Assembly: GCA_028690445.1 (NCBI GenBank)
Contig: JAQVBE010000008.1
Coordinates: forward strand, 48,367 to 112,366
Length of the DNA: 64,000 nt
Reading direction: 5' to 3'
Source of the DNA: Aliarcobacter sp.
Lineage (GTDB): Bacteria > Campylobacterota > Campylobacteria > Campylobacterales > Arcobacteraceae
A program made the position numbers and the translations under genes. The notes beneath the pieces were generated by a model, which was not told the origin of the DNA, made no database searches, and saw nothing but the letters and a program-made list of their open reading frames with translations. Shown here in pieces: positions 12,862 to 48,393 of the stretch (within the stretch, counting starts at the first letter, position 1; every line of letters starts with the position of its first letter).

Positions 12862-13593
12862 TTATTTTAATAATAAATCCATTTCTTTAGCCAATGCTTT
12901 TCTTTTTGCAAGATTAATCAATGCTTCTTCAGACTCAATATAACTTGCATCTTTTTCAGGAATAAATTTTTCAATAAAAATAATTTGAGTACCAACATCT
13001 TTTAAATTTACTTTAACAATATCACCTTCATTCTTATCTTTTAAGGCTGTTATAACTTCAATATTTAATTTATTTACATCCACTAAATCTGTTAAACCAT
13101 CTTTTTGTTTTGAAGCTAAATCATTTGAAACTGATTTTACATATTTTATAAAAGATTCTTGTTTATCTTTTTTATTTTTTAATCTATTTAAAGCTGCAAT
13201 AATTTTATCCGCATTTTCTTCGTAAGTTACTAAAATATTTCGTAATTCATATTTTGCTACAATCCTTGGTTTTTCTGCTTTATAAAGCTCTTTTAACTCT
13301 GTATCAGTTGGGACATAACTTCTTAAAAATTTTTCACTCCAAATATCAACTGTAAGAATATTTTTTGCAGTTCTTAAATTAATATCATTTTTCATTATAT
13401 CTTTTTCTAAATTTTGAGATAATTTAACAACAGTGTCATACTCTTTTGTTAAAGCTTCTTTTACCTTTGCTTCTTGTTTATAAAAATCAACTTTATGCTT
13501 TTGGGCAGTATAAGAAGCTACTTCTTTTTCATCTGAAAATAAATTAATATTAAATAAAATACTACATAAAAATAAGGCTGTAAATTTTTTCAT
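12862..13593 (-). CDS. Periplasmic parvulin (PpiC/SurA-like) peptidyl-prolyl isomerase
   Basis: Signal peptide; 'VAKYELRNILVTYEENADKIIAALNRLKN...' resembles parvulin start; ends 'KVNLKDVGTQIIFIEKF'. Confidence 0.7.
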   Translation of the reverse strand: MKKFTALFLCSILFNINLFSDEKEVASYTAQKHKVDFYKQEAKVKEALTKEYDTVVKLSQNLEKDIMKNDINLRTAKNILTVDIWSEKFLRSYVPTDTELKELYKAEKPRIVAKYELRNILVTYEENADKIIAALNRLKNKKDKQESFIKYVKSVSNDLASKQKDGLTDLVDVNKLNIEVITALKDKNEGDIVKVNLKDVGTQIIFIEKFIPEKDASYIESEEALINLAKRKALAKEMDLLLK

Positions 13594-13615: not shown

Positions 13616-16600
13616 TTAGAAATTAAGTCTAAAAGAGACATTTCCTGAATATCCTTCAAAATTGCCATCTTTACTTCTATCATAATCAACACCTATCATT
13701 ACACTTGTAGATTCACTAAGTGTTGTTTTAACTCCAAATCCTGCATTAAACATAGTTTTGTTTAAATCTTGTGTTGGTGTTACAAATTGACTCCCACCAC
13801 CTACATATTGAGCTTTTATATCAGCATTTGTATCGCCAAAAGCATTATAAGCTGCTAATTTAAATTCTGGAACAATTACAGTATCTCCAATATTTAAATT
13901 CGTAGAAAGTTTAGCTCCAACGCCTAGAGTACCTTTATTTACTTTTACAGAATCAACTTTTAAAGCATCATTTTGATGTGAAGTACCTTTTTCAATATAA
14001 CCTTTTTGATTTAAATTTCCATATTCAAGAGAAGTAAAAGGTGTTAAAGTTGCTAAATCTTCAAAATATACTCTATGACCTACTTCAACTTTAGCAGATA
14101 TTTGATCAGCATCAGATGAAGATGATAATTTACCAGAATTTGCAGTTCTTATTGAATCAGTAGAGTGTTTTGCATAAGATAATATACCATCTACATAGGT
14201 ATCACCAAAATCCATTGATCCATAAGTTGAAAGCTGAACACTTTGAGTATCTGAACTATCTCCACTTCTAAAATCTGTTTGATCTATTTTTGTATTTGCT
14301 TGTGCTAATGCTAATCCTATCGTTGCGCCATTTCTTAGAGTTCTATCAAGTCCTGCAACAAAACCTAAAGTAGTTGATTCATATCCGTCATAATCTTGAA
14401 CTTTACTTTGTGTTGCTTTTGAACCCATTGCTTTTATCCATAATGAATTATTTAAAGTATATGTTCCTGATGAATATCCTGAATAACCATATGGAATAAA
14501 ATCGGTACTTGAAGAAAGTTTTATATCAGATATTCTATCTTTTATTGTTGAGGCTACTAAAGTTGATGCAGTAAGAGAAGATTGAATACTTGAGTTATTT
14601 GCAACAGGTGCTAATAATTTTTGTATTTCTATCATTTGTGCTTTTTTCTCAGGTGTTAAATTCACTCCACCATCTAAAGCTTCAATTTTAGTTCTTATAT
14701 TACCTAAAGCTTCTTTTTTCTCTAATGTAGCAAGTGCTTGTGAAGCTCCATTTGAATAATGTTCTCCAATACCTGATTTTACAATATATAAATCTTCAGC
14801 CCCATATTTTCCACCACCTGTTCTATCAGCAAATAAAATCAGATTATTCCCATCCACTTTAATTATTGAATCAATGATACTATTATCACTAACTTTTCCA
14901 TTTGCTTCTGTTCCCAAATAAGTTCCTGAAATACTATTTGCAGAAATTAAAGTATAACTTCCAGCACCATATAAAGTACCTTCATAATTAACTTTTATTA
15001 TTGCATTATTATCAATTGTTAAAGTATTAGTTGCAATACTTCCAGAAGGAGCACCAGCTGATGAACCACTAGCTGTTATATCAGAAGTATATACTTTAAA
15101 TCCAGTTAATGAATTAGCTGCTAATGCTAAGTTCTCTGTAATTTTTATATCATGAGTATTTACATCTAAAATAGAATTTGCTCTTACAGTTAAACTTCCG
15201 TCAAATTTAACATCATCCTTCATGTCAAGTATTGTTTTATTTGTTCCATTTCCAATATAAGTATTTTGGGCATATATATCTTTATCTAAATTTTGAGTAT
15301 AAGTATTTGCAGTAGAACCAGCTGATCCAAAAGTTACATTTTTAAGTCTTTCTGAACTTGTACCAATATCTGTAGTAAGTAATGTTGTACCTAAGAAATT
15401 TAATGAACCAGTATCAGTAGTTGCTGTAGTAACGGCAACAGGAGATGAAGAAACTATTATATTTTTACCATCAGATACATTTACTACACCATCTGCATCA
15501 TAAATTAAATCACCAGTTAAATTTCCTTCAAAATTAACAGTACCTTCTCCGCTTACATGGAATGTACTTTCTTTTACATAAACATCATTTTTGAAAGTAA
15601 CTATTTTACCATCAGCCCCTGCATAAATTTTTTCGAAAGTAGAATTTCCAGCAGTATTTCCACCTAAAACTCCTGTTATTATCGAACTTCCATCAAATTC
15701 TAAAATTGCATTATTTCCATTAACAAATTGAGTTCCAGCACTACCAACTGTTAAATTAACATCATCGCCTATTGCTAAAGTGCTAGCTTTATTATCAAAA
15801 TCAACAGTTCCTATTATTCCCTCAGCAGAAGGATTTGTACTATTATCACCATTTAATACAACTTTTCCATTATCAGAATATTTTAAAGTTGATGCATATA
15901 CCATATCATCAAAAGTAACTGTTTTTCCAGTTGCTCCTGCATTTATAGTATTTAAAACTTTATTACTTTGTCCAACTTCACCTTTAATATTTGAAGTTCC
16001 TTCAAAAGTTAATGTTCCCGTATTTGTATTATCTACCGTAATTAATATATTATCAGAACCTGTATTTATTAGATTTACGTTATCTTTTAGCGTTAAGGTT
16101 GCATTATTTCTGAGGTTTACAACATCCGCATAAAGTTCTCTAGCAAGTGCAGTATAACCTATAACAAGACCTGGTCCACCACTATTTTGTTGATTAGCCG
16201 TATTTATATTAAGTTCTTTAATTCCAGAAGCACCACTATTTATGCTATTTCCTGAAATTGTTCCATCACCTTGATAATTTATAATTCCAGTATTATTTGA
16301 AGCTAAAGTTTGAACTGAACCTAAAATACCTTTTCCATCTGATACATTTACCGTTGCATCTTTTCCAGCAAAATTAATACCTCCTGTTAGACCATTTAAT
16401 AAATTCGCTGTTCCATTATCTGTAAATATAATATTTGTATTTGTTGTTCCAGATACTGTATTAAAATTTACAGCCCCTGCACCAATTTTAGTATTTGTCG
16501 CATAAACATCATTTGCAAAATTTGTTGTTCCAGTACCTGTATTTATTTCGACTAGCTTATGTGTTGAATCTCCAACTGTTCCACTTACTGTTTGATTATT

Positions 16601-19369
16601 ACTTCCAACTAAATTTAATGTCCCTTTATTATCTACTGTTGTTGTAACATTTCCCGTTAATCCAGTATTTAAATTTGCTATTCCATTATCAGTGAATTGT
16701 AAATTAGAAGTTGTTGTTCCTGATACTGTATTAAAGTTTCCTGTTCCTGCTCCAATATTTGTATTTGTGGCATACACATCATTTTCAAATGTTACTGTTT
16801 TACCAGCTATTCCATTTGCGTTTATATTTCCTAAACTAGTTGTTGAATTCCCAACTGTTCCTGTTACTGTTGAGCTTCCATTAAATGTTAAATTCCCTGC
16901 TCCTGTAATAGTTGAAGTTACATTTGAACCATCTGTCATTATTAGAGTTGAATCTATTTTTGTATTAACTGCATTTACATCTCCAGCTACTGTTGTACTA
17001 TGTCCAGTATTTGATACATTTAAATTACCTATATTCCCAACTGTTCCTGTAATTATTTGATCTATAATTCCTGTTGTTGTTAATGTGCCTACTCCTGCAC
17101 TAGTCGAGTTTACCGCTCCGGTTAAATTACCTTTTATATCTACTGTTCCTGCTCCAATATTTGTATTTGTGGCATACACATCATTTTCAAATGTTACTGT
17201 TTTACCAGCTATTCCATTTGCGTTTATATTTCCTAAACTAGTTGTTGAATTCCCAACTGTTCCTGTTACTGTTGAGCTTCCATTAAATGTTAAATTCCCT
17301 GCTCCTGTAATAGTTGAAGTTACATTTGAACCATCTGTCATTATTAGAGTTGAATCTATTTTTGTATTAACTGCATTTACATCTCCAGCTACTGTTGTAC
17401 TATGTCCAGTATTTGATACATTTAAATTACCTATATTCCCAACTGTTCCTGTAATTATTTGATCTATAATTCCTGTTGTTGTTAATGTGCCTACTCCTGC
17501 ACTAGTCGAGTTTACCGCTCCGGTTAAATTACCTTTTATATCTACTGTTCCTGCTCCAATATTTGTATTTGTGGCATACACATCATTTTCAAATGTTACT
17601 GTTTTACCAGCTATTCCATTTGCGTTTATATTTCCTAAACTAGTTGTTGAATTCCCAACTGTTCCTGTTACTGTTGAGCTTCCATTAAATGTTAAATTCC
17701 CTGCTCCTGTAATAGTTGAAGTTACATTTGAACCATCTGTCATTATTAGAGTTGAATCTATTTTTGTATTAACTGCATTTACATCTCCAGCTACTGTTGT
17801 ACTATGTCCAGTATTTGATACATTTAAATTACCTATATTCCCAACTGTTCCTGTAATTATTTGATCTATAATTCCTGTTGTTGTTAATGTGCCTACTCCT
17901 GCACTAGTCGAGTTTATCGCTCCGGTTAAATTACCTTTTATATCTACTGTTCCTGCTCCAATATTTGTATTTGTGGCATACACATCATTTTCAAATGTTA
18001 CTGTTTTACCAGCTATTCCATTTGCGTTTATCTCTTTTAATTTATTTGTTGCATCTCCAACTTGTCCTGAAATAGTTGATGTTCCTGCTAGGTTTAATGT
18101 TCCTTGATTAGGAGCATCACTTGTTATTGCTGAATCTATATTTTTACCATCTGCTAGGTTTACTATTCCATTATCATTATATCTTAGAGCTGTTCCCGTA
18201 TAATTACCATTTAAATTTACAGTCCCTGTTCCCTCTACATCTAAATATGTTGCATACACATCATTTGCAAATGTTACTGTTTTCCCAGCTATTCCATTTG
18301 CATTTATATTTCCTAAACTAGTTGTTGAATTCCCAACTGTTCCTGTTACTGTTGAATCTCCATTAAGTGTTAAATTCCCTGTTCCTGTAATAGTTGAAGT
18401 TACATTTGAACCATCTGTCATTATTAGAGTTGAATCTATTTTTGTATTAACTGCATTTACATCTCCAGCTACTGTAGTAGTAAATCCTGTATTTGATACA
18501 TTTAAATTACCTATATTCCCAACTGTTCCTGTAATTATTTGATCTATAATTCCTGTTGTTGTTAATGTTCCTACTCCTGCACTAGTTGTTACTACATTCC
18601 CTGTTAAATCTGAATTTAAAACTACTGTTCCAGCAGCACTAAATTTTAAATCATCTACTGGACCAGTAGAAACATTAACTGCACTCTTAAAAGTAGTTGT
18701 ACTACCTACTGCTGCAACATCTATTGAACCTGCATTTACAGTTCCATTAAATACTATATTATTACCATCAAGCTTTATGTTTCCATCACCTATTCCTGTA
18801 TAACCAGATACAGTATTATTTCCTTGAAAAATTAAATTAGCTGTATAATCAATCGAAGATGGCGTTTGTGTTAAAGAATAAGTAGAACTACTTGAAACAG
18901 GAACTAAAGCAGGAGATGTAGGTGCAGAATAAAGAGTACTACCTTGTTTAGTAATATTATTTGCATTTGCACCAGATGCAAAAGTAAGCTCTAATTTTAA
19001 TTTATCTGGATTTTGATTAAGTATATAAGCATCTTGTAATGGTCCATAATAATTGGCAGAAGTAGAGGTTGGAATATAAAAACTATTTGCCCAAGAAGTT
19101 GGAGCAAATATTACATTATCTGTAGTTGCAGCATTTCTTGTATCAGCATTATTACCATTAGTTGCTGTATTTGTTGCTGTTTCAACCGTAACACTACCAC
19201 TGGTAAGATTACTAAGTACAGTACTTGTTCCCGTAAAATAATCTGTAGCATTAGCTTTTGTACTACCAAGTGTTAGCGTTCCACCTATTAAGGCAATACT
19301 GAAGGCTAAACCTATTTTTCCACCTTTTAAAATACGAAATCTCGTATTCATAACTCTGAATGAATTCAT
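13616..19369 (-). CDS. Repeat-rich autotransporter (type V secretion) with C-terminal beta-barrel
   Basis: Extended signal peptide-like 'MNSFRVMNTRFRILKGGKIGLAFSIALIGGTLTLGSTKANA', beta-helical repeats, C-terminal barrel ending '...SGNVSFRLNF' with terminal Phe. Confidence 0.92.
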   Translation of the reverse strand: MNSFRVMNTRFRILKGGKIGLAFSIALIGGTLTLGSTKANATDYFTGTSTVLSNLTSGSVTVETATNTATNGNNADTRNAATTDNVIFAPTSWANSFYIPTSTSANYYGPLQDAYILNQNPDKLKLELTFASGANANNITKQGSTLYSAPTSPALVPVSSSSTYSLTQTPSSIDYTANLIFQGNNTVSGYTGIGDGNIKLDGNNIVFNGTVNAGSIDVAAVGSTTTFKSAVNVSTGPVDDLKFSAAGTVVLNSDLTGNVVTTSAGVGTLTTTGIIDQIITGTVGNIGNLNVSNTGFTTTVAGDVNAVNTKIDSTLIMTDGSNVTSTITGTGNLTLNGDSTVTGTVGNSTTSLGNINANGIAGKTVTFANDVYATYLDVEGTGTVNLNGNYTGTALRYNDNGIVNLADGKNIDSAITSDAPNQGTLNLAGTSTISGQVGDATNKLKEINANGIAGKTVTFENDVYATNTNIGAGTVDIKGNLTGAINSTSAGVGTLTTTGIIDQIITGTVGNIGNLNVSNTGHSTTVAGDVNAVNTKIDSTLIMTDGSNVTSTITGAGNLTFNGSSTVTGTVGNSTTSLGNINANGIAGKTVTFENDVYATNTNIGAGTVDIKGNLTGAVNSTSAGVGTLTTTGIIDQIITGTVGNIGNLNVSNTGHSTTVAGDVNAVNTKIDSTLIMTDGSNVTSTITGAGNLTFNGSSTVTGTVGNSTTSLGNINANGIAGKTVTFENDVYATNTNIGAGTVDIKGNLTGAVNSTSAGVGTLTTTGIIDQIITGTVGNIGNLNVSNTGHSTTVAGDVNAVNTKIDSTLIMTDGSNVTSTITGAGNLTFNGSSTVTGTVGNSTTSLGNINANGIAGKTVTFENDVYATNTNIGAGTGNFNTVSGTTTSNLQFTDNGIANLNTGLTGNVTTTVDNKGTLNLVGSNNQTVSGTVGDSTHKLVEINTGTGTTNFANDVYATNTKIGAGAVNFNTVSGTTNTNIIFTDNGTANLLNGLTGGINFAGKDATVNVSDGKGILGSVQTLASNNTGIINYQGDGTISGNSINSGASGIKELNINTANQQNSGGPGLVIGYTALARELYADVVNLRNNATLTLKDNVNLINTGSDNILITVDNTNTGTLTFEGTSNIKGEVGQSNKVLNTINAGATGKTVTFDDMVYASTLKYSDNGKVVLNGDNSTNPSAEGIIGTVDFDNKASTLAIGDDVNLTVGSAGTQFVNGNNAILEFDGSSIITGVLGGNTAGNSTFEKIYAGADGKIVTFKNDVYVKESTFHVSGEGTVNFEGNLTGDLIYDADGVVNVSDGKNIIVSSSPVAVTTATTDTGSLNFLGTTLLTTDIGTSSERLKNVTFGSAGSTANTYTQNLDKDIYAQNTYIGNGTNKTILDMKDDVKFDGSLTVRANSILDVNTHDIKITENLALAANSLTGFKVYTSDITASGSSAGAPSGSIATNTLTIDNNAIIKVNYEGTLYGAGSYTLISANSISGTYLGTEANGKVSDNSIIDSIIKVDGNNLILFADRTGGGKYGAEDLYIVKSGIGEHYSNGASQALATLEKKEALGNIRTKIEALDGGVNLTPEKKAQMIEIQKLLAPVANNSSIQSSLTASTLVASTIKDRISDIKLSSSTDFIPYGYSGYSSGTYTLNNSLWIKAMGSKATQSKVQDYDGYESTTLGFVAGLDRTLRNGATIGLALAQANTKIDQTDFRSGDSSDTQSVQLSTYGSMDFGDTYVDGILSYAKHSTDSIRTANSGKLSSSSDADQISAKVEVGHRVYFEDLATLTPFTSLEYGNLNQKGYIEKGTSHQNDALKVDSVKVNKGTLGVGAKLSTNLNIGDTVIVPEFKLAAYNAFGDTNADIKAQYVGGGSQFVTPTQDLNKTMFNAGFGVKTTLSESTSVMIGVDYDRSKDGNFEGYSGNVSFRLNF
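16741..17946 (-). repeat. Three tandem 402-bp (134-aa) almost identical repeats inside the autotransporter gene
   Basis: Sequence starting ctgttcctgctccaatatttgtatttgtggcatac recurs at 16741, 17143, 17545, and partially at 17947, with period 402; I saw one base difference (accgctcc vs atcgctcc) in the third copy. Confidence 0.93.
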
Positions 19370-38257: not shown

Positions 38258-39097
38258 ATGGATTCAAGTTTATTAAAAGTTTTTGTTGAAGTAGCACGAG
38301 AAAATAGTATTACAAAGGCAGCAAATAAATTAAATTTTGCCCAATCAAATGTAACTTCAAGAATAAAACAGCTTGAAAAATCTTTAGGCTTTGCACTATT
38401 TCATAGAGTTCCCAAAGGTGTGATTTTAAGTAAAGAAGGAGAAAAACTCTATCCTTATGCAGTTGAAATTGTAAAAAAAGTTGAACTTGCTACTTTTAGT
38501 ATGAAAAATATAAACAACCAAGAACATCTAATAATTGGTTCAACCGAATCAAATGCCACTACAAGAATTGTGCCATTTTTAGTTCAACTTCACAGTGATT
38601 TTCCAAATATGAGTTTGGAATTAATCACAAATACAACAAGAGAAATCACAAAAGAACTGCTTGATTATAAAGTTGATATTGCATTTATTAGTGGAATTCC
38701 AAAACATAGTGATTTAATAGTTTTAAATAAAGTAGAAGAAGATATTGTTGTTGTTGAGCCCAAAATAGGAGATGCTCCAAATGTTTTTTTATCTTTTAAA
38801 AATGGTTGTGCTTATAATGAATTTGGGCAAAATTATCTAAAAAATAGCTCAAACGAAGATTTTAAAACCTTAGAGTTTGGAAATTATGAAATAATTTTAG
38901 GTTGCGTGAAAGCAGCAATGGGAAAAAGTTTATTGCCTATGAGTATAGTTAAAAAACATAAATATGAGAATGATTTAAAAATTACAACTTTACCAAAAGA
39001 GTTGGCAAATATGCCAACTTGTTTGGTTTGTAGAAAAGATAATATTCCTAAAATCGAGGATTATCTAAAAGAGTATCAATTTTTTATCTTTCAGTAA
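38258..39097 (+). CDS. LysR-family transcriptional regulator
   Basis: 'MDSSLLKVFVEVARENSITKAANKLNFAQSNVTSRIKQLEKSLGFALFHR'; divergent from the MFS gene. Confidence 0.93.
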   Translation: MDSSLLKVFVEVARENSITKAANKLNFAQSNVTSRIKQLEKSLGFALFHRVPKGVILSKEGEKLYPYAVEIVKKVELATFSMKNINNQEHLIIGSTESNATTRIVPFLVQLHSDFPNMSLELITNTTREITKELLDYKVDIAFISGIPKHSDLIVLNKVEEDIVVVEPKIGDAPNVFLSFKNGCAYNEFGQNYLKNSSNEDFKTLEFGNYEIILGCVKAAMGKSLLPMSIVKKHKYENDLKITTLPKELANMPTCLVCRKDNIPKIEDYLKEYQFFIFQ

Positions 39098-40247
39098 ATG
39101 CTTCGTTAAGAGTTTTAATAACAGGTTTAGCAAGATATGTTAAAACTGTTCGCTCTCCTGTAATAATATCAATTTGCCCTGTCATACCAGGTGTTACAAT
39201 AACTTTTTTTCCAACTTTTGAAATCATTTCTCTTCCATCAATTGAAATAAGAACTCTAAAAAAGAATTCATCACCCTTAGCTGTTTTTTCTACCAAAGTA
39301 TCTGAACTGATATGTTTTACTTTACCTTCAAAACCACCAAAAATAGAAAAATCATAAGCATCTAATTTTACAGAAGCTTTTTGTCCCTCTTTTACAAATG
39401 AAATTTCAGAAGGGCTTAATTTTGCTTCAATTACAAGTTCATCAATAGGTACTAATTGCATTATTACATCACCTGCTCTTACTTTTGCACCTTTTGTTGT
39501 AATTAAAATATTATTTACAATCGCATCCATAGGAGATACTATTTCAGCTCTTCCTAAAGTTACAGTTTTATCTGCTAATTCTTGTTTTTGACTAGATAAT
39601 TCTTCTTCATATTTTGTAAGTTCAGCTTGTGATTCTTGAAAATATTTATTTTTTCTATTTACAATTTGACCTTCAATATCTGCAACTTGTCGTTTTAATC
39701 TTATTAATTCAATAGCTCCTACATCTCCTGTTTTAACTAAAGGAATATTCAAATTTAATTCATCTCTTGCTAAGTCCAAAGAGTTTTGTAAAGTTCCTAT
39801 CTCATCATTTAGTGCTTCTTGTCTTCTTTTAAATAACTCTTGTTGAGAAGACATAAAATCAGGATATTCTATTGATAAAGGAGTAAACCTCATTTCTTTT
39901 TTAAAAACTTCTGCTTTTAATCTTGATATAGTAGATTCTAAAGCTGCTACTTTTGATTTTATTGATTCATAACTCGCTTGAAATTGTGATTCGTCAAGCT
40001 TCGCTATAACTTCATCTTTTTTTACACTTTGCCCCTCTTTTACAAATATTTCTTCTATAACTCCATCATTTGCTGATTGTATTTCTTGTTTTTTAGCAGT
40101 TGCTATTACAATTCCCTTTGCTCTTGATATTTGCTCCAATTTTGCGATTGATGCCCAAGTTAAAAAAGGAATTAATATTACAAACAACGATCCAAGTATT
40201 ACTATTAAAGGATTAATTTTTATAATGTATGGTAAATCTACTTTCAT
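39084..40247 (-). CDS. Type I secretion membrane fusion protein (HlyD/LapC family)
   Basis: 'AKGIVIATAKKQEIQSANDGVIEEIFVKEGQSVKKDEVIAKLDE', C-terminal 'VTPGMTGQIDIITGERTVLTYLAKPVIKTLNEAFTER'. Confidence 0.95.
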   Translation of the reverse strand: MKVDLPYIIKINPLIVILGSLFVILIPFLTWASIAKLEQISRAKGIVIATAKKQEIQSANDGVIEEIFVKEGQSVKKDEVIAKLDESQFQASYESIKSKVAALESTISRLKAEVFKKEMRFTPLSIEYPDFMSSQQELFKRRQEALNDEIGTLQNSLDLARDELNLNIPLVKTGDVGAIELIRLKRQVADIEGQIVNRKNKYFQESQAELTKYEEELSSQKQELADKTVTLGRAEIVSPMDAIVNNILITTKGAKVRAGDVIMQLVPIDELVIEAKLSPSEISFVKEGQKASVKLDAYDFSIFGGFEGKVKHISSDTLVEKTAKGDEFFFRVLISIDGREMISKVGKKVIVTPGMTGQIDIITGERTVLTYLAKPVIKTLNEAFTER

Positions 40248-40248
40248 T

Positions 40249-42360
40249 TTATACCTTTGCTACTATATTTTTTGGTGCTGATAATTTATTTAGAACTTCT
40301 TCTTTAGTATCATCAATTGCAATACCATTAGGTGTTAAAACAATAATTCTATCAACCATATTTAAAACAATTGGTTTGTGTGTTACTACTATCATTGTTT
40401 GATTTGAGTCCATTCTATTTTTTAGCATTGTAATTATTTGTTTTTCAGTTCCCTCATCCATACTAGCTGTTGGTTCATCAAGAAGTATTATTTTTTTATT
40501 TGCAACAATCATTCTTGTAAGTGCAATAAGTTGTTTTTGTCCACCTGAAACACTTTCTCCACCCTCAGGAACAACTGTATCCAAACCATTTGGTAAGGCA
40601 TTTATCAAACCAATTAAACCTGATAATTTAGCAGCTTCAATAATTTGTTCATCACCCACGCCTATCATTCCAAATATTAGATTATCTCTTAATGTTCCTG
40701 CAAATAATTTTGTACTTTGAGGCAAATAACTCATATTTTCAGTTAAAAAATCTCTTTTTATTAACTGCATATCAATTCCATCTAAATATACAAATCCTTT
40801 TGTAGGTTTATATAATCCAGCAATTATTTTAAGAAGTGTTGATTTTCCACTTCCAATAGCTCCTAAAATAGCTACTTTTTCACCTTGTTTTATATTTAAT
40901 TCAGACAAAGTAAGTATATTTGAGTTTTCGCTATACCCAAAAGATATATCTTTACATTTTATATCTGTTGAATCTAAATAAGGACTAAGCGGTCTGCTTA
41001 CTCCTTCATTATCAGATGCTAGTTTGTAAATACTATTTAAATCTTTTATAGATAGTTTTGCTTTACCCCATTGAACAAACTGATTTGGAAGTTGAGCTAT
41101 TGGTTGAAGTATTCTTCCTGAAAGAATAGTCATAGCAATCAAAGCTCCCATTGTGATTGTTCCATTTTCTGCTACTAAATAAGCTCCTAAAGATACAATC
41201 ATAATATAACTTAGTTGTTGAAGAAAAGCTGTTATATAAGATGACATATCAGTGTAATGTCTTATTTCAATATCATCATCAACAGCTTCTTGAGTTAATT
41301 TATTCCAATTATTTAAAATATTAAATCCAGCTCCAGTTGCTTTTATATTTTCACTATTTTCAACAGTTTCTACCATTAAACCCATTTTCTTATATGAAGC
41401 CATTGATGAGTTTTTTGAAGCTAATTCGATTTTGTCTCTAAAAATAAATCCAACAATCAAAGATATAATCAAAAAGCCAATAGGCACAAGTCCCATAGCA
41501 AAACCACCAATAAAGAAAATAGCAATCATAAAAATAATAGAAAAAGGTATATCTATAAAAATAAACATAGCAGCAGATGTTATAAAAGCTCGCACAGAGC
41601 TATAACTTTGAAGTTGTCCTGTAAGAGTTCCTATACTTTTTGGAAGTGCATCACATCTTATTTGTAAGAATCTTTCAAAAATATCATTTGAATATTCTAT
41701 ATCCATTTTTTTAGTTGCATAATCTAATAGAACTGATCTTGAAAATTTGATTATCATTTCTAAAAAAATAGCAATAAAAACTCCCATAGTTAAAACAACC
41801 AAAGTAGAAATAGCTCCCGTAGGAACAACTCTGTCATAAACTTGCATTGTATAAAGAGAAGTTCCAAGAGCCAAAGTATTTACACTAAAAGTAGCAGCTG
41901 CTGCATATACTAATAATCTTTTTTGTTCATAAGCAACTTTTTTAAACATTTCAAGTGCAGATGATTTTTTTTCTTCTTTTTTCTTCTTTTTCAAATTTGC
42001 AAATTTTGTATTTTTAGGAAAAGAATCAAAAACTTTTATTCCATCTTTGTATTGAGCCTTAAAACTTCCATCTTTTGAATGTTCATATATTAAAACCATA
42101 CCAATTTCAGGAACAAATGCAAAAGTTGGTAAAAACTGTTTTGATATTTTTTTTGAAAAATTTAGATTTTCAAAATCCAAATTATTTAATAACTCAGAAT
42201 AAAACATCTCTAAATACTTATTTTCATAAGAAGTTAAGTTCTCTACAATCATTTGTATTTTTTTTGAATTCAAATTAGTTGTACTATCACTTATAATAGT
42301 ATTAGAACTTAACAACCATTTTAAGTCATCTTTTGCTAAATTTAAATCACTATAAATCAT
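40249..42360 (-). CDS. Type I secretion ABC transporter (LapB/HlyB type) with N-terminal C39-like domain
   Basis: 'ILGAIGSGKSTLLKIIAGLYKP', 'ESVSGGQKQLIALTRMIVANKKIILLDEPTASMDEGTE'; N-terminal ~140 aa precede the TMD. Confidence 0.95.
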   Translation of the reverse strand: MIYSDLNLAKDDLKWLLSSNTIISDSTTNLNSKKIQMIVENLTSYENKYLEMFYSELLNNLDFENLNFSKKISKQFLPTFAFVPEIGMVLIYEHSKDGSFKAQYKDGIKVFDSFPKNTKFANLKKKKKEEKKSSALEMFKKVAYEQKRLLVYAAAATFSVNTLALGTSLYTMQVYDRVVPTGAISTLVVLTMGVFIAIFLEMIIKFSRSVLLDYATKKMDIEYSNDIFERFLQIRCDALPKSIGTLTGQLQSYSSVRAFITSAAMFIFIDIPFSIIFMIAIFFIGGFAMGLVPIGFLIISLIVGFIFRDKIELASKNSSMASYKKMGLMVETVENSENIKATGAGFNILNNWNKLTQEAVDDDIEIRHYTDMSSYITAFLQQLSYIMIVSLGAYLVAENGTITMGALIAMTILSGRILQPIAQLPNQFVQWGKAKLSIKDLNSIYKLASDNEGVSRPLSPYLDSTDIKCKDISFGYSENSNILTLSELNIKQGEKVAILGAIGSGKSTLLKIIAGLYKPTKGFVYLDGIDMQLIKRDFLTENMSYLPQSTKLFAGTLRDNLIFGMIGVGDEQIIEAAKLSGLIGLINALPNGLDTVVPEGGESVSGGQKQLIALTRMIVANKKIILLDEPTASMDEGTEKQIITMLKNRMDSNQTMIVVTHKPIVLNMVDRIIVLTPNGIAIDDTKEEVLNKLSAPKNIVAKV

Positions 42361-43604
42361 TTAATTTCTCCAGTTAATAAATCTATTTGACCATTTTTTA
42401 ATGCTAATTTATATGATAAAATACTTTTTGTTACATATAGGTTTGATAATTCTATTTTATACTGCATAACTTCTCTTGATGCATTTACCAAATCCAACCA
42501 TTGTCTTTTACCTGCTAAAAAAAGTCTTGTATAAGAATCCAAAACATTTTGAGCAGAATCAACCGAACGCTGTAAAATATTTATTCTATTTTTTGCTATT
42601 TCATAGTTGTTATAATCACTTAATAAACTATCTATTAGTTCTTTTTCAATAGTTTTTTTTCTATATTCCATTTCATTTATTTTTATTTTTGATGCTGCTA
42701 TATCTGAAATAGAAGATAAACCAGCTCTTGTTGTAGCAGTAAATGCTAGATATACAATATTTTGGTCATTAGATTTATCATAATTATCAGAATACAAATC
42801 TCCCTCTCTACGCTCAACTCTCAAATTAAGATTTGGCATAATAGAAGCTTCTGTACCATCTTTTTCATATTTTGAAGTTTCTATTTGAGCTGATGTTTTT
42901 TTCAAAGAGGGATGAAACTCTAATAGTTTTTTTATACTTTCTTCAATATCACTATTTTGAGCATTTGTAATATCTCTAAAATCAATATCACAATTTATTT
43001 TTCTATCAAGTATAAGTTCTAGTTGTAAAGTTGCTACTTTATATTTATTTTTTGCAAGCATTTTATCACTACTCACTTGCTCTATTCTAGCACTTAATAA
43101 ATCTTTATCAGAATTTGAAGAAACTCCAACTTCCATTCTTCTATCTAGCATTTCACTAAATTTACTCAGATTATCAGCACCTTCTTGTAACTCTATAATA
43201 TTTGATTTTGATTGAAGATAGCTTTCTAAAATATTTAAATAACTCTCTATTAGCTTATATGAATTTTCTTCTAGTTCATAAATATTTTCTTTTTCTTTTG
43301 AAGTTGCCATATCATATTTACTTGTGAGTTTTCCACCCGTCCAAATGGGTTGGTCAAGTCTTGCTACTGCTGTATGCCTATCACTATCTTTTCCAGAAAC
43401 ATCTAGAGATGGTGTTGGAAAAAATCCCCAAAATGCAGAATCAACTCTCTCTTTTGCACCTTTTATCACTTCTTGTGACATTTTAACACTTGGGTGATTT
43501 GACAAAAGTTGTGAAAGTAACTCATCTGAATCTGTTTTACATACCTCACTAGCAAAACTTACTGTTGTAAGTAAATACATAACTAAACTCAATTTTCTTT
43601 TCAA
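42357..43604 (-). CDS. TolC-family outer membrane channel protein
   Basis: TolC-type repeats 'LLSNHPSVKMSQEVIKGAKERVDSAFWGFFPTPSLDVSG...'. TTG start at 43604 with aggaaaaac upstream preferred; the track start at 43673 would lie inside a terminator hairpin. Confidence 0.88.
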   Translation of the reverse strand: MKRKLSLVMYLLTTVSFASEVCKTDSDELLSQLLSNHPSVKMSQEVIKGAKERVDSAFWGFFPTPSLDVSGKDSDRHTAVARLDQPIWTGGKLTSKYDMATSKEKENIYELEENSYKLIESYLNILESYLQSKSNIIELQEGADNLSKFSEMLDRRMEVGVSSNSDKDLLSARIEQVSSDKMLAKNKYKVATLQLELILDRKINCDIDFRDITNAQNSDIEESIKKLLEFHPSLKKTSAQIETSKYEKDGTEASIMPNLNLRVERREGDLYSDNYDKSNDQNIVYLAFTATTRAGLSSISDIAASKIKINEMEYRKKTIEKELIDSLLSDYNNYEIAKNRINILQRSVDSAQNVLDSYTRLFLAGKRQWLDLVNASREVMQYKIELSNLYVTKSILSYKLALKNGQIDLLTGEIK

Positions 43605-43657
43605 GTTTTTCCTTTGTGATTTTTTAGCTCTTAGTTTTATAGTAGAGTTAAACGCAA

Positions 43658-43689
43658 AAAAACTTAGAAGCAAGAGCTTCTAAGTTTTT
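43658..43689 (-). terminator. Rho-independent terminator between the repeat-protein gene and tolC
   Basis: aaaaacttagaagc-aaga-gcttctaagttttt perfect 14-bp stem; minus-strand reading continues into TTTTTTT. Confidence 0.85.
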
Positions 43690-43750: not shown

Positions 43751-46700
43751 TTATGCTGTTACTACAACACCGTCAGTTACTTTTACTGTATAAGTTTCAT
43801 TACCAGCTGCACCATCAAAATTACCTGTTATACTATATGATTGATATCCAGCAACAGCTACTCCACTATTATTTATAGCCCATCCAGTTAAATCTAAAGT
43901 ATCTTTTGTTGCATCAGCATTAATAGTTAATAGAATATCACCTAAAGTATCATTCGCTGCAAATAAATTTGCTGCTGTAATAGTGATTGCTGTATTATTT
44001 ACTAAATCAGTAGTTGCATCAATAGTTGTAAGACCAGTAATTCCAGCTAAACTTCCAAGATCAGTTAAACTAAAAGCTAATCCTGTTACATCAACTTCTG
44101 AAACAGTTACTAAACCACTTGTTGCAGTATTAATTGCAGCTACATTAGCTACAGTTGCATCAGTTCCTGTAATATGTACTGTTTCATTTCCAAGTCCAGT
44201 TATAGCCCCTGCATATGCTTCTGCTACTTTTGCTGAACTACCACTAATATCTGTAACTGTAGTTGCATCTACTACACCTGAAGTTTTTGCATCAAGACCA
44301 GTTAAATCAGTAGCTTTTACACTTCCAGTATCAGTTAATTTTAATGCATACACATTTACTGTTGCATTTGCATCAACTAATGCTGCATTTAAAACAGCTG
44401 CTGTATCATCTGCAATAGTTGCTGTTACCGCTCCACTTGTTAAATCTGCAATTGCATCTGCTTGAGCTGCTGTTACTGTTCCAGAAATAGTTACTGCTTC
44501 ATCTCCTGTTGTAAGACCGTTAGCTGATACATATACACTAGTTACATCAGCAATATTTCCAGTTACTGTTGTTACATCTACTAGTACATCAAGTGAAGTT
44601 TTTGCATCAAGAGCAATTAACCCAGCAGCTGTTGCAGTTAGTCCTGTAATAGTTACTGTTTCATTTCCAAGTCCAGTTATAGTCCCAGCTGTATTTGCTG
44701 CATATGCTGCTGTTACCTCTGCTAAAGTACCACTAATTGCTGTAACTGCAGCTGCATTTACAGCAACTGAAGTTTTACCATCAAGACCAGTTAAATCAGT
44801 AGCTAATGTTGTAGTATCATTACTTACTGTTAATTTATATGCATTTGCTCCTGCATTTGCATCAAGTAATGCTGTATTTAAAGCTGCTGCTGTTCCAGCT
44901 GCAATAGTTGCTGTTACCGCTCCAGTTGTTAAATCTGCAATTGCATCTGCTTGAGCTGCTGTTACTGTTCCAGAAATAGTTACTGCTTCATCTCCTGTTG
45001 TAAGACCGCTAGCTGTATATACACTAGTTACATCAGCAATATTTCCAGTTACTGTTGTTGCATTTACTGCTACAGCAACTGAAGTTTTAGCATCAAGAGC
45101 AATTAAATCAGCTGCTGCTGCAGTTGTACCAGTTACTGTTAAAGTTAATGCATCATTATCATCATTTGATACACCAGCTAATGCTGATTTTAAAGCTGCT
45201 GCTGTTCCAGCTGCTACTGTTGCTGTTACTGTACCATTTGTTGCTTTTGAAATTGTATTTGCATCTGTTGCTGATATTTCACCAGTAACAGTTGCATCTA
45301 CATCTGCTGCTTTAGTTATTGTTTTTGCTGCAAGAACTGTTTTTATATCTGCTGCATTACCAGTGATTTCTGTAACTAATTTTGCATCAACTGCAACTGA
45401 AGTTTTACCATCAAGAGCAATTAAATTAGTTGCTGCTGTTCCTCCCACTGTACTATCTACTACTAAAGTTAATGCATCTGTTGCTTTTGCATCTGTTAAA
45501 GCTGTAACTAAAGCTGCAGCTTCATCATGTGTTACTGTTGCAGTTACTATTCCAGTTGTAGCTTTTGCAATTACATCTGCTTGAGCTGCTGTTGCTGCTC
45601 CAGAAATAGTTACTGTTTTTGTCTCTTCACCTGTAAAGTGAGATTTATTTCCATCAAATACTGTTGTTACATCAGCAATATTTCCAGTTACTGTTGTTGC
45701 ATCTACTTTTATAGCAACTGAAGTTTTAGCATCAAGAGCAATTAAATCAGCTGCTGCTGCAGTTGCACCGTTTACTGTTAAAGTATATGCATTTGCTCCT
45801 GCATTTGCATCAAGTAATGCTGTATTTAAAGCTGCTGCTGTTCCAGCTGCAATAGTTGCTGTTACCGCTCCAGTTGTTAAATCTGCAATTGCATCTGCTT
45901 GAGCTGCTGTTACTGTTCCAGAAATAGTTACAGTTTCACCTCCAAGATTTCCAAAGTTAGCTGCATTTGTTACAAATACTTTCGTTACATCAGCAATGTT
46001 TCCAGTTACATTTATTGCATCTACTACTACATCTTCTGAAGTTTTAGCATCAAGAGCAATTAAATCTGAAGCTTTTGCATTAGCACCAGTTACTGTTAAA
46101 GTTAATTTATCTGCTGCATTTGCATCTTTTAAATTTGCAACTAAAACATCTGCAGTAGCACTTACAGATGCAGTTACTATTCCAGTTGTAGCTTTTGCAA
46201 TTGTATTTATTTGAGATGTTAATGCACCATTATCAATAGTTACAGCTTCATTTCCAAGATTTGCAAAACCAGCTTTATTTGTTACATATAATTTTTCTAA
46301 AGCTGCATAATCTCCAGTTACTTCTGCTGCATCTACTTTTACTTTTACACTAGTTTTAGCATCAAGAGCATTTAAAACAGTTGCTGCTGCAGTTGTACCG
46401 TTTACTGTTAAAGTATATGCATTTACATCTACATTTGAATCAACTAATGCTGTATTTAAAACTGCTGCTGTATCAGCTGCAATAGTTGCTGTTACTATAC
46501 CAGTTGTTAGGTCTGCAATTGTATCTGCATTAGTTGCTGTTACTGTACCACTAAGAGTTACTGCTACATTTGCTGCTACATCTGTTGTTGCAGCATTTGT
46601 TACAAGAACTGTATGTACATCTGTAAAATTTCCAGTGATTAATGTAACTGCATTTGCATTTACAATAGTTCCAGTTTTAGCATCAAGAGCAATTAAATCA

Positions 46701-48393
46701 GTTGCTGCTGCTGTTCCTTTTGAAATTGTTAAAGTTAATAAATCTGCATTTGTTGTATTTACTAGTACTTTATTTAAAGCTGCTGCTGTTCCAGCTGCTA
46801 CTTCTGCTGTTACTACACCAGCTGTTGCACCTGTAATTGTATTTGTATCAGCTGCTGATACTGTACCAGTAACTGTTACAGCTTCATCACCTTGAGTAGC
46901 TATTCCAGCTGCTGAATAAACTTTTTTAACATCTGCTGCACTTCCAGTGATTAATGAAACTGCATCTACATTTACATTAACTGAAGTTTTACCATCAAGA
47001 GCTAGTAAATCAGATGCTTTTGTTCCTGCTGCTGTATTATTTACCGTTAAAGTTAAAGCATCTGTTGCTTTCGCATCTGTTAATGCTGCAACTAAATCTG
47101 AAGCTTCAGCACCATTTACTGTTGCTGTTACAACACCAGTTGTTAATTTTGCAATATCATTTGCATTTGCTGCAGTAATACCACCACCAGTAATTTTAAT
47201 AGCTTCATTTCCAAGACCACTTACAGTTTTTGCTGTATTTGCTGCATATGCTGCTGTTACTTCTACAACACTACCACTAATTGCTGTAACTGCAGCTGCA
47301 TTTACAGTAACTGAAGTTTTACCATCAAGACCAGTTAAATCAGTAGCTAATGTTGTAGTATCATTACTTACTGTTAAAGTATATGCATTTTCACCTGCTG
47401 CTGTTAATGCTGTATTTAAAACTGATGCTGTATCAGCTGCAATAGTTGCTGTTACTGTTTCAGTTGCTGCTGTTGCAATTAAATCTGCAGTAGTTGCTGA
47501 GATAGTACCTGTGATTTTTACATCTGCATTTGTAGCAATAGCTAATGCATCTGTAACATTTTCTGCATCTACACCAACAGTTGCAGCATTTTCAGTTATT
47601 GTAGTTATAGAAGTTACAGTAAAATTATCAACTTTTGCAGCTAAAACAACTAAATCTCTTGCGTTTACAGTTTTATCTGTTGTTGTAAATGTTATAACAT
47701 CAGCTGCATCTACATTTGCAAGAGCTTTTAAAGTTGCTGATACAGATCCATCTTTGATTGTTGCAGTTAATGCACCAGTTGTTGCTTTTGCGATTGTATT
47801 TGTATCTACTGCTGAGATTTCTCCAGCAGTAATTTCTACAGCTGCATTTGTTGCAATATTCAATGCTGATTTAATAGCAGCAACATTTTCTGAAGTACCT
47901 TCAAGTTTAATTACAAGAGAAAAATCTGCATTTGGAAGTAGTTTTTTTAGATTAATTAAAGCAGTTAATTCACTAGTTCCTGAAACAGTAGCTTGAGTTG
48001 GTGCAAATGTGATAGAATCAGAAGTTTTCACACCATTAAGAGCTGTAACTAAATCTAAATTAATAGCAGTATCAACTAAAGTAGCTGTTACCTTTCCAGT
48101 TGTTGATTTTGCGATAGTGTTTAACTCAGCTGCAGTTGGAGTACCTGTAACTATAATAGCACCTGCGTAATTTGTAATTCCATCAAGTGCATCTATTATA
48201 ACTGCTGCACTATCGTTTAATGGTTGTGAAGCTGCTGTTTTTAATACAATTGGTAAATCAGTTTTGTCATTGATAGTTTTTAAATTAGCTGCAGTTAATC
48301 TGCGTTTGTTATTGTAACTTGTGTATCAGCATTAATTACTGCTACTAAAGCTTCTGTCATTGTCCCTTTAAATGTATCTACATTTGCTGCCAT
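43751..48393 (-). CDS. Giant Ala/Thr/Val-rich repeat protein, predicted T1SS substrate (adhesin or S-layer-like), frameshifted near its 5' end
   Basis: Main frame 43751-48031 (1426 aa). Homologous repeat coding continues upstream in the same frame to ~48298; ATG at 48393 opens MAANVDTFKGTMTEALVAVINADTQVTITNAD then stops at 48297-48295; one extra T would join the two (…NAD-LTAANLKT…). Confidence 0.85.
44836..44983 (-). repeat. ~148-bp direct repeat in the repeat-protein gene, copy 1
   Basis: Apparently identical to 45784-45931 (offset 948 bp = 316 codons). Confidence 0.75.
45784..45931 (-). repeat. ~148-bp direct repeat in the repeat-protein gene, copy 2
   Basis: Apparently identical to 44836-44983. 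Confidence 0.75.

Follow-up and report, generated by a model that had tools for sequence, protein, structure and literature searches.

A type Va autotransporter of the Arcobacter group with near-identical tandem blocks in a predicted beta-solenoid stalk

Introduction

Long, highly identical tandem repeats in the stalks of single-chain bacterial surface proteins, present in variable copy number, characterize the Periscope Proteins, examples of which are SasG, Sgo_0707, Rib and CdrA; the survey of this group also includes an autotransporter, ShdA, with 4–6 PATR repeats (PMC8201768, PMC9704523). The rOmpA (Sca0) autotransporter of spotted-fever Rickettsia contains near-identical tandem units of 216/225 bp that vary in copy number within species, and its arrays could not be closed by short-read assembly and were resolved with nanopore reads (PMC6908463). 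A different route to variation is known for Hsr of Helicobacter mustelae, which varies by recombination (PMC2846917). Export of type V proteins can also involve a co-encoded periplasmic helper, as in the SadB-SadA and TpgA-AtaA pairs, and the Bordetella parvulin Par27 acts on one such protein (PMC8151025).

Here we describe an autotransporter gene with a near-perfect internal tandem repeat, found in a window of 64,000 nucleotides of Aliarcobacter sp. (contig JAQVBE010000008.1, positions 48,367 to 112,366). The source genome is a 2.42-Mb Arcobacteraceae draft in 25 contigs. Among named relatives, Aliarcobacter sp. STF1_119 and Arcobacter caeni stand closest to it; they are taken here as genomes G023 and G004, respectively. 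The Arcobacter group includes food-borne members. Judging by titles and abstracts, none of the papers listed by literature searches on Arcobacter or Aliarcobacter autotransporters describes this gene family.

Results

A classical autotransporter carrying near-identical tandem units

The gene lies at 13616–19369 on the minus strand as a single open reading frame of 1917 aa. It is the only gene in this genome that matches PF03797 (E 9.5e-46, residues 1643–1895), which bears out the label of autotransporter given in the initial annotation. The leader (residues 1–42; 19244–19369, minus strand) opens with M(N/K)SFRVxxTRFRILKGGKIGL, is near-identical across orthologs, and is followed by a hydrophobic stretch with an ANA-type site that, by inspection, is an apparent signal sequence. 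At the other end of the protein, an AlphaFold2 model of residues 760–1917 shows stalk to about residue 1516, then a helical segment, a long helix at about 1593–1618 (14516–14593, minus strand) that is predicted to link into the barrel, and the translocator barrel itself (13685–14443, minus strand), with model strands at 1641–1916. The modelled barrel matches those of EstA, NalP, BrkA and EspP with E values of 1e-12 to 1e-8. The conserved C-terminal part of the stalk (residues about 1028–1516; 14822–16288, minus strand) is built of modules that are orthologous by position and are not homogenised. With a 12-strand PF03797 barrel, an N-terminal signal sequence and a predicted helix entering the barrel, the product is a classical (type Va) autotransporter.

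The autotransporter has no ESPR match in Pfam, and leader residues 7–33 also match the leaders of other large surface proteins. The core motif FRILKGGKIxL (19300–19369 here; also G000:C17:27400–27474, L104) is common to large open reading frames, many of 700–4000 aa, and occurs in 10 of 20 Arcobacteraceae genera. Five inspected motif-bearing reading frames have the look of two-partner (TpsA/FHA-like) exoproteins, judged by their N-termini. In Arcobacteraceae this leader may act as an extended signal peptide region for type V secretion.

The initial annotation had also reported consecutive 402-bp units, one base apart, within this gene, and both TRF and direct comparison of the copies confirm them. 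TRF places the array at 16741–18031 (period 402, 3.2 copies, 99% matches, score 2575). The 402 bp from 16741 recur unchanged from 17143, and the third copy, from 17545, is a single base off, at 17917 (C>T on the plus strand; Ile/Val in the protein), amounting to one difference in the 804 bp of DNA compared between units; the self-match at a shift of 402 is exact for 774 bp, far above chance expectation. Each unit corresponds to exactly 134 codons (402 = 3 x 134) in the frame of the 1917-aa protein on the minus strand. In protein order, unit 1 (17545–17946, residues about 475–608) carries the variant base, and unit 2 (17143–17544, residues about 609–742) is identical to unit 3 (16741–17142, residues about 743–876). 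Ahead of unit 1 in the protein, and on the same strand, are a near-exact partial copy of 85 bp in the 402-bp period (17947–18031, residues about 447–474) and a more diverged copy, covering only a portion of the unit at about 90% identity (18223–18522, residues about 283–382), in agreement with flanking copies earlier placed at about 17947–18640.

Both the 402-bp unit and the whole protein match their own genome at this locus alone. Antigenic variation in which silent cassettes are shuffled into an expression site has a precedent in Hsr, an autotransporter of a related bacterial group that varies by cassette recombination (PMC2846917), but a genome-wide search with unit and protein found no silent cassette copies elsewhere, and we regard this explanation as very improbable here.

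Predicted structure of the stalk

A first AlphaFold model, of residues 43–760 and based on 11 sequences, is all beta with a mean pLDDT of 85, rising to about 95 in the array. The pattern of strands recurs at 134 residues with a sub-period of 18–20 (19) residues, or about seven rungs per unit; this sub-period comes from predicted secondary structure only, the hydrophobicity periodicity of the stalk being uninformative. A Foldseek search of the stalk model against the PDB returned no significant match, and the best weak ones are mostly to the beta-helix passengers Hap, VacA, Ag43 and Hbp, together with other solenoids. Sequence searches with the entire autotransporter and with its neighbouring peptidyl-prolyl isomerase (PPIase) against solved structures likewise gave no match. 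On these models the stalk is likely a beta-helix. The usual rise of a beta-solenoid is 0.48 nm per rung, and one 402-bp unit of about 7 rungs would represent about 3.3 nm of rod.

Arrays in closed genomes

Of 31 genomes (species) of the genus, 18 have the autotransporter gene; none of the 73 others examined from the family has it, apart from weak barrel-only matches. Over the C-terminal 960 residues, its DNA diverges by 3.5% from G023 and by 13% from G004 and G025. In one of the genomes with the gene (G019, L054) two autotransporters of the same family lie in tandem, the first of 915 aa and the second broken at a contig end, a possible gene-level duplication.

Eight of the assemblies with the gene are closed or almost so, with one or two contigs, and in each of them the gene contains direct repeats of high identity that keep the frame. 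The shorter units are of 273 bp in G029 (5.4 copies, 100% identity) and G011 (7.4 copies), 276/279 bp in G010 (7.1 copies), 384 bp in G006 (6–7 copies) and 204 bp in G012 (about 91% identity). Units of 1125 bp in G025 (2.1 copies), 1299 bp in G002 (2.1 copies) and 1410 bp in G005 (1.9 copies) exceed the range of TRF, which was run with a limit of 1000 bp. Every array period found in the orthologs is divisible by 3 and ortholog lengths span about 1.5 to 2.6 thousand residues, so the proposal that passenger length changes in frame is supported across species. Copy number also changes at one and the same period: relatives that are 21% divergent in C-terminal DNA have 5.4 and 2.5 copies, respectively, of a 273-bp unit. 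This comparison, like all those made here, is between species.

Because closed genomes carry arrays of this kind in the same gene, the near-identical in-frame arrays of this family are real and not an artefact of assembly. It is nonetheless conceivable that this particular array, or its copy number, was made or miscounted by the assembler, given that the source is a 25-contig draft and the period-402 stretch exceeds short-read length. Moreover, six of the nine other drafts with the gene (G019, G020, G021, G023, G024 and G028) have it broken by a contig end or N-gap within the repeat region; G023 breaks at the array itself, so this nearest ortholog was compared outside the array only. We consider such an error unlikely, since equivalent near-identical arrays occupy the same gene in closed genomes and since spurious duplication leaves unexplained both the single internal variant and the in-register diverged neighbours. 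The count of 3.2 copies, read from the draft, is plausible.

Homogenisation of the stalk and ordinary divergence of the C-terminal region

A profile of a 69-residue module, seeded with both halves of the 134-residue unit, identifies 14 modules here; full-length orthologs have 9 to 25. For 91 of 124 array modules the best match lies inside the same gene, compared with none of the 44 C-terminal modules (four per gene). At four-fold degenerate sites the copies of this array differ at 0 of 157 positions, and differences within eight other arrays amount to 0 to 0.9%. By the same measure the C-terminal region is 8% diverged from its ortholog in G023, 26–27% from those in G004 and G025, and up to 57% from that in G005. 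The recent duplication or gene conversion first proposed for these units is therefore supported: no four-fold site separates the copies, against a divergence at such sites of 8% from the closest species and 26–27% from the two after it.

In a tree of the 273-bp-type units from eight species, each species with at least two units forms one group (0 of 200 shuffles equally low), and the units of G029 are mutually identical, with a distance of about 8% to the G022 units. Genomes G002 and G006 differ by 12% in DNA, yet their units are of 1299 and 384 bp. A one-off ancient duplication, with identity preserved by selection on the protein sequence, might be entertained in that a solenoid fold must persist, making constraint at the protein level plausible. 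However, the four-fold sites contradict it, being identical in the array when orthologs are 8–57% apart, and only an odd constraint on codons, limited to the array, could account for them. The different units of the sister species G002 and G006 also speak against it, and such a one-off origin is very improbable. The sequence comparisons instead show concerted evolution that is limited to the stalk and creates new unit registers; the C-terminal part of the stalk and the barrel diverge in the manner of ordinary orthologs.

A PPIase gene paired with the autotransporter

A PPIC-type PPIase with an apparent signal peptide is encoded at 12862–13593 (minus strand), starting 22 bp past the autotransporter stop. 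Strong homologs of it (L062–L079) adjoin the autotransporter in 18 of the 18 genomes that have one and occur in 0 of the 13 that do not, which contain at most weak general PPIase paralogs. Fisher's test gives 1/C(31,13), about 5e-9, uncorrected, a figure whose true weight is lowered by shared ancestry. A reasonable inference is that the PPIase serves as a dedicated chaperone of the autotransporter.

Two diverged PPIase paralogs also lie beside second autotransporter-type genes. In G021 (C23, L053:4700–11019) the gene order is second autotransporter, SapC family (PF07277, E 3.6e-63), PPIase, and in G012, at 988–991 kb, a paralog adjoins a 2458-aa leader-bearing reading frame, a candidate autotransporter-type gene. 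The downstream alpha/beta hydrolase was considered as a member of the system and rejected, as species that lack the autotransporter have it too. In G007 and G008 (L097, L098) a distantly related barrel, at 22–24% identity, lies close to the hydrolase gene, on its upstream side; in other genomes this hydrolase gene borders the operon.

The window holds a second repeat-rich gene, at 43751–48031 on the minus strand, encoding 1426 aa. TRF units in it are of 489 and 318 bp, and it contains several direct repeats of at least 92% identity, with periods that are all multiples of 3. It has no match in Pfam or NCBIfam and adjoins type I secretion genes at 39084–43673 (HlyD, ABC exporter, TolC-like); its product is probably a secreted surface protein.

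Discussion

Taken together, the results make it quite probable that the locus encodes a type Va autotransporter with an all-beta solenoid stalk of ~68-residue modules, in which a two-module, 134-residue block has recently been copied, giving a protein that resembles the Periscope Proteins. The block presumably was duplicated in tandem in the central stalk very recently, and recombination among the copies could then gain or lose whole units, through unequal crossing-over (probably RecA-dependent) or slippage; unequal crossing-over between copies would be the simplest mechanism. With each 402-bp unit gained or lost, the length of the surface rod would change by ~7 rungs, or about 3 nm, and the N-terminal tip would shift its distance from the cell, a behaviour akin to that of a Periscope Protein. 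The autotransporter likely functions in adhesion or surface spacing; its length may vary between isolates, and it may serve as a surface antigen.

Whether such changes in length are advantageous bears on how the turnover is read. Arrays might grow and shrink simply because the gene is modular, with length conferring no advantage; diverged modules would provide seeds for recombination, and the size of the unit seems arbitrary among species. Homogenised arrays are present in nearly all full-length orthologs with the frame always intact, and the gene is retained with its coupled PPIase. These features weigh against neutral turnover and are not proof of adaptive length, and we give neutrality a lesser but appreciable chance. 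On a further reading, which is possible but less likely than not, the length of the solenoid rod may be retuned through new tandem blocks of arbitrary multi-rung size, such that unit and copy number both turn over between sister species while a dedicated parvulin-type chaperone keeps the repetitive passengers export-competent.

The family adds a clean set of length-variable autotransporters for the Arcobacter group, a poorly studied lineage. Homogenised stalk beside non-homogenised C-terminal modules provides a control built into a single gene, and the tight pairing with the periplasmic PPIase makes it possible to test whether a chaperone serves a single repetitive type V passenger. A practical consequence is that this gene is systematically broken, and possibly miscounted, in short-read assemblies.

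Among described systems, the SadB-SadA and TpgA-AtaA pairs are similar in that a periplasmic helper gene adjoins the gene for a type V secreted protein. However, SadA and AtaA are trimeric proteins whose helpers are not described as PPIases, whereas here a PPIC-type protein is encoded beside a classical autotransporter; Par27, for its part, is described as interacting with the two-partner protein FHA (PMC8151025). Hsr and other H. mustelae autotransporters are likewise large proteins of Campylobacterota, but Hsr draws on silent cassettes and the present gene is single-copy with internal tandem units. The nearest well-studied autotransporter with near-identical tandem units is rOmpA, whose NCBIfam model (NF052635) weakly matches residues 1167–1917 (E 3.5e-11). 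Membership in that equivalog family is rejected, at 40.8 bits against a cut-off of 2600, and rOmpA differs in unit length and belongs to a distant bacterial group.

The likeness to Periscope Proteins extends to a monomeric surface stalk and repeats of more than 50 residues (here 134) with very high DNA identity; repeat number, which in that class varies between closely related strains, varies here between species. The differences are that the predicted stalk is one continuous, rod-like beta-solenoid and not a chain of domains that each fold on their own, and that the unit itself changes between species. In sum, the protein is best read as an autotransporter of variable length in the manner of the Periscope Proteins, comparable to rOmpA or ShdA: a clear new family, but of a kind already known elsewhere.
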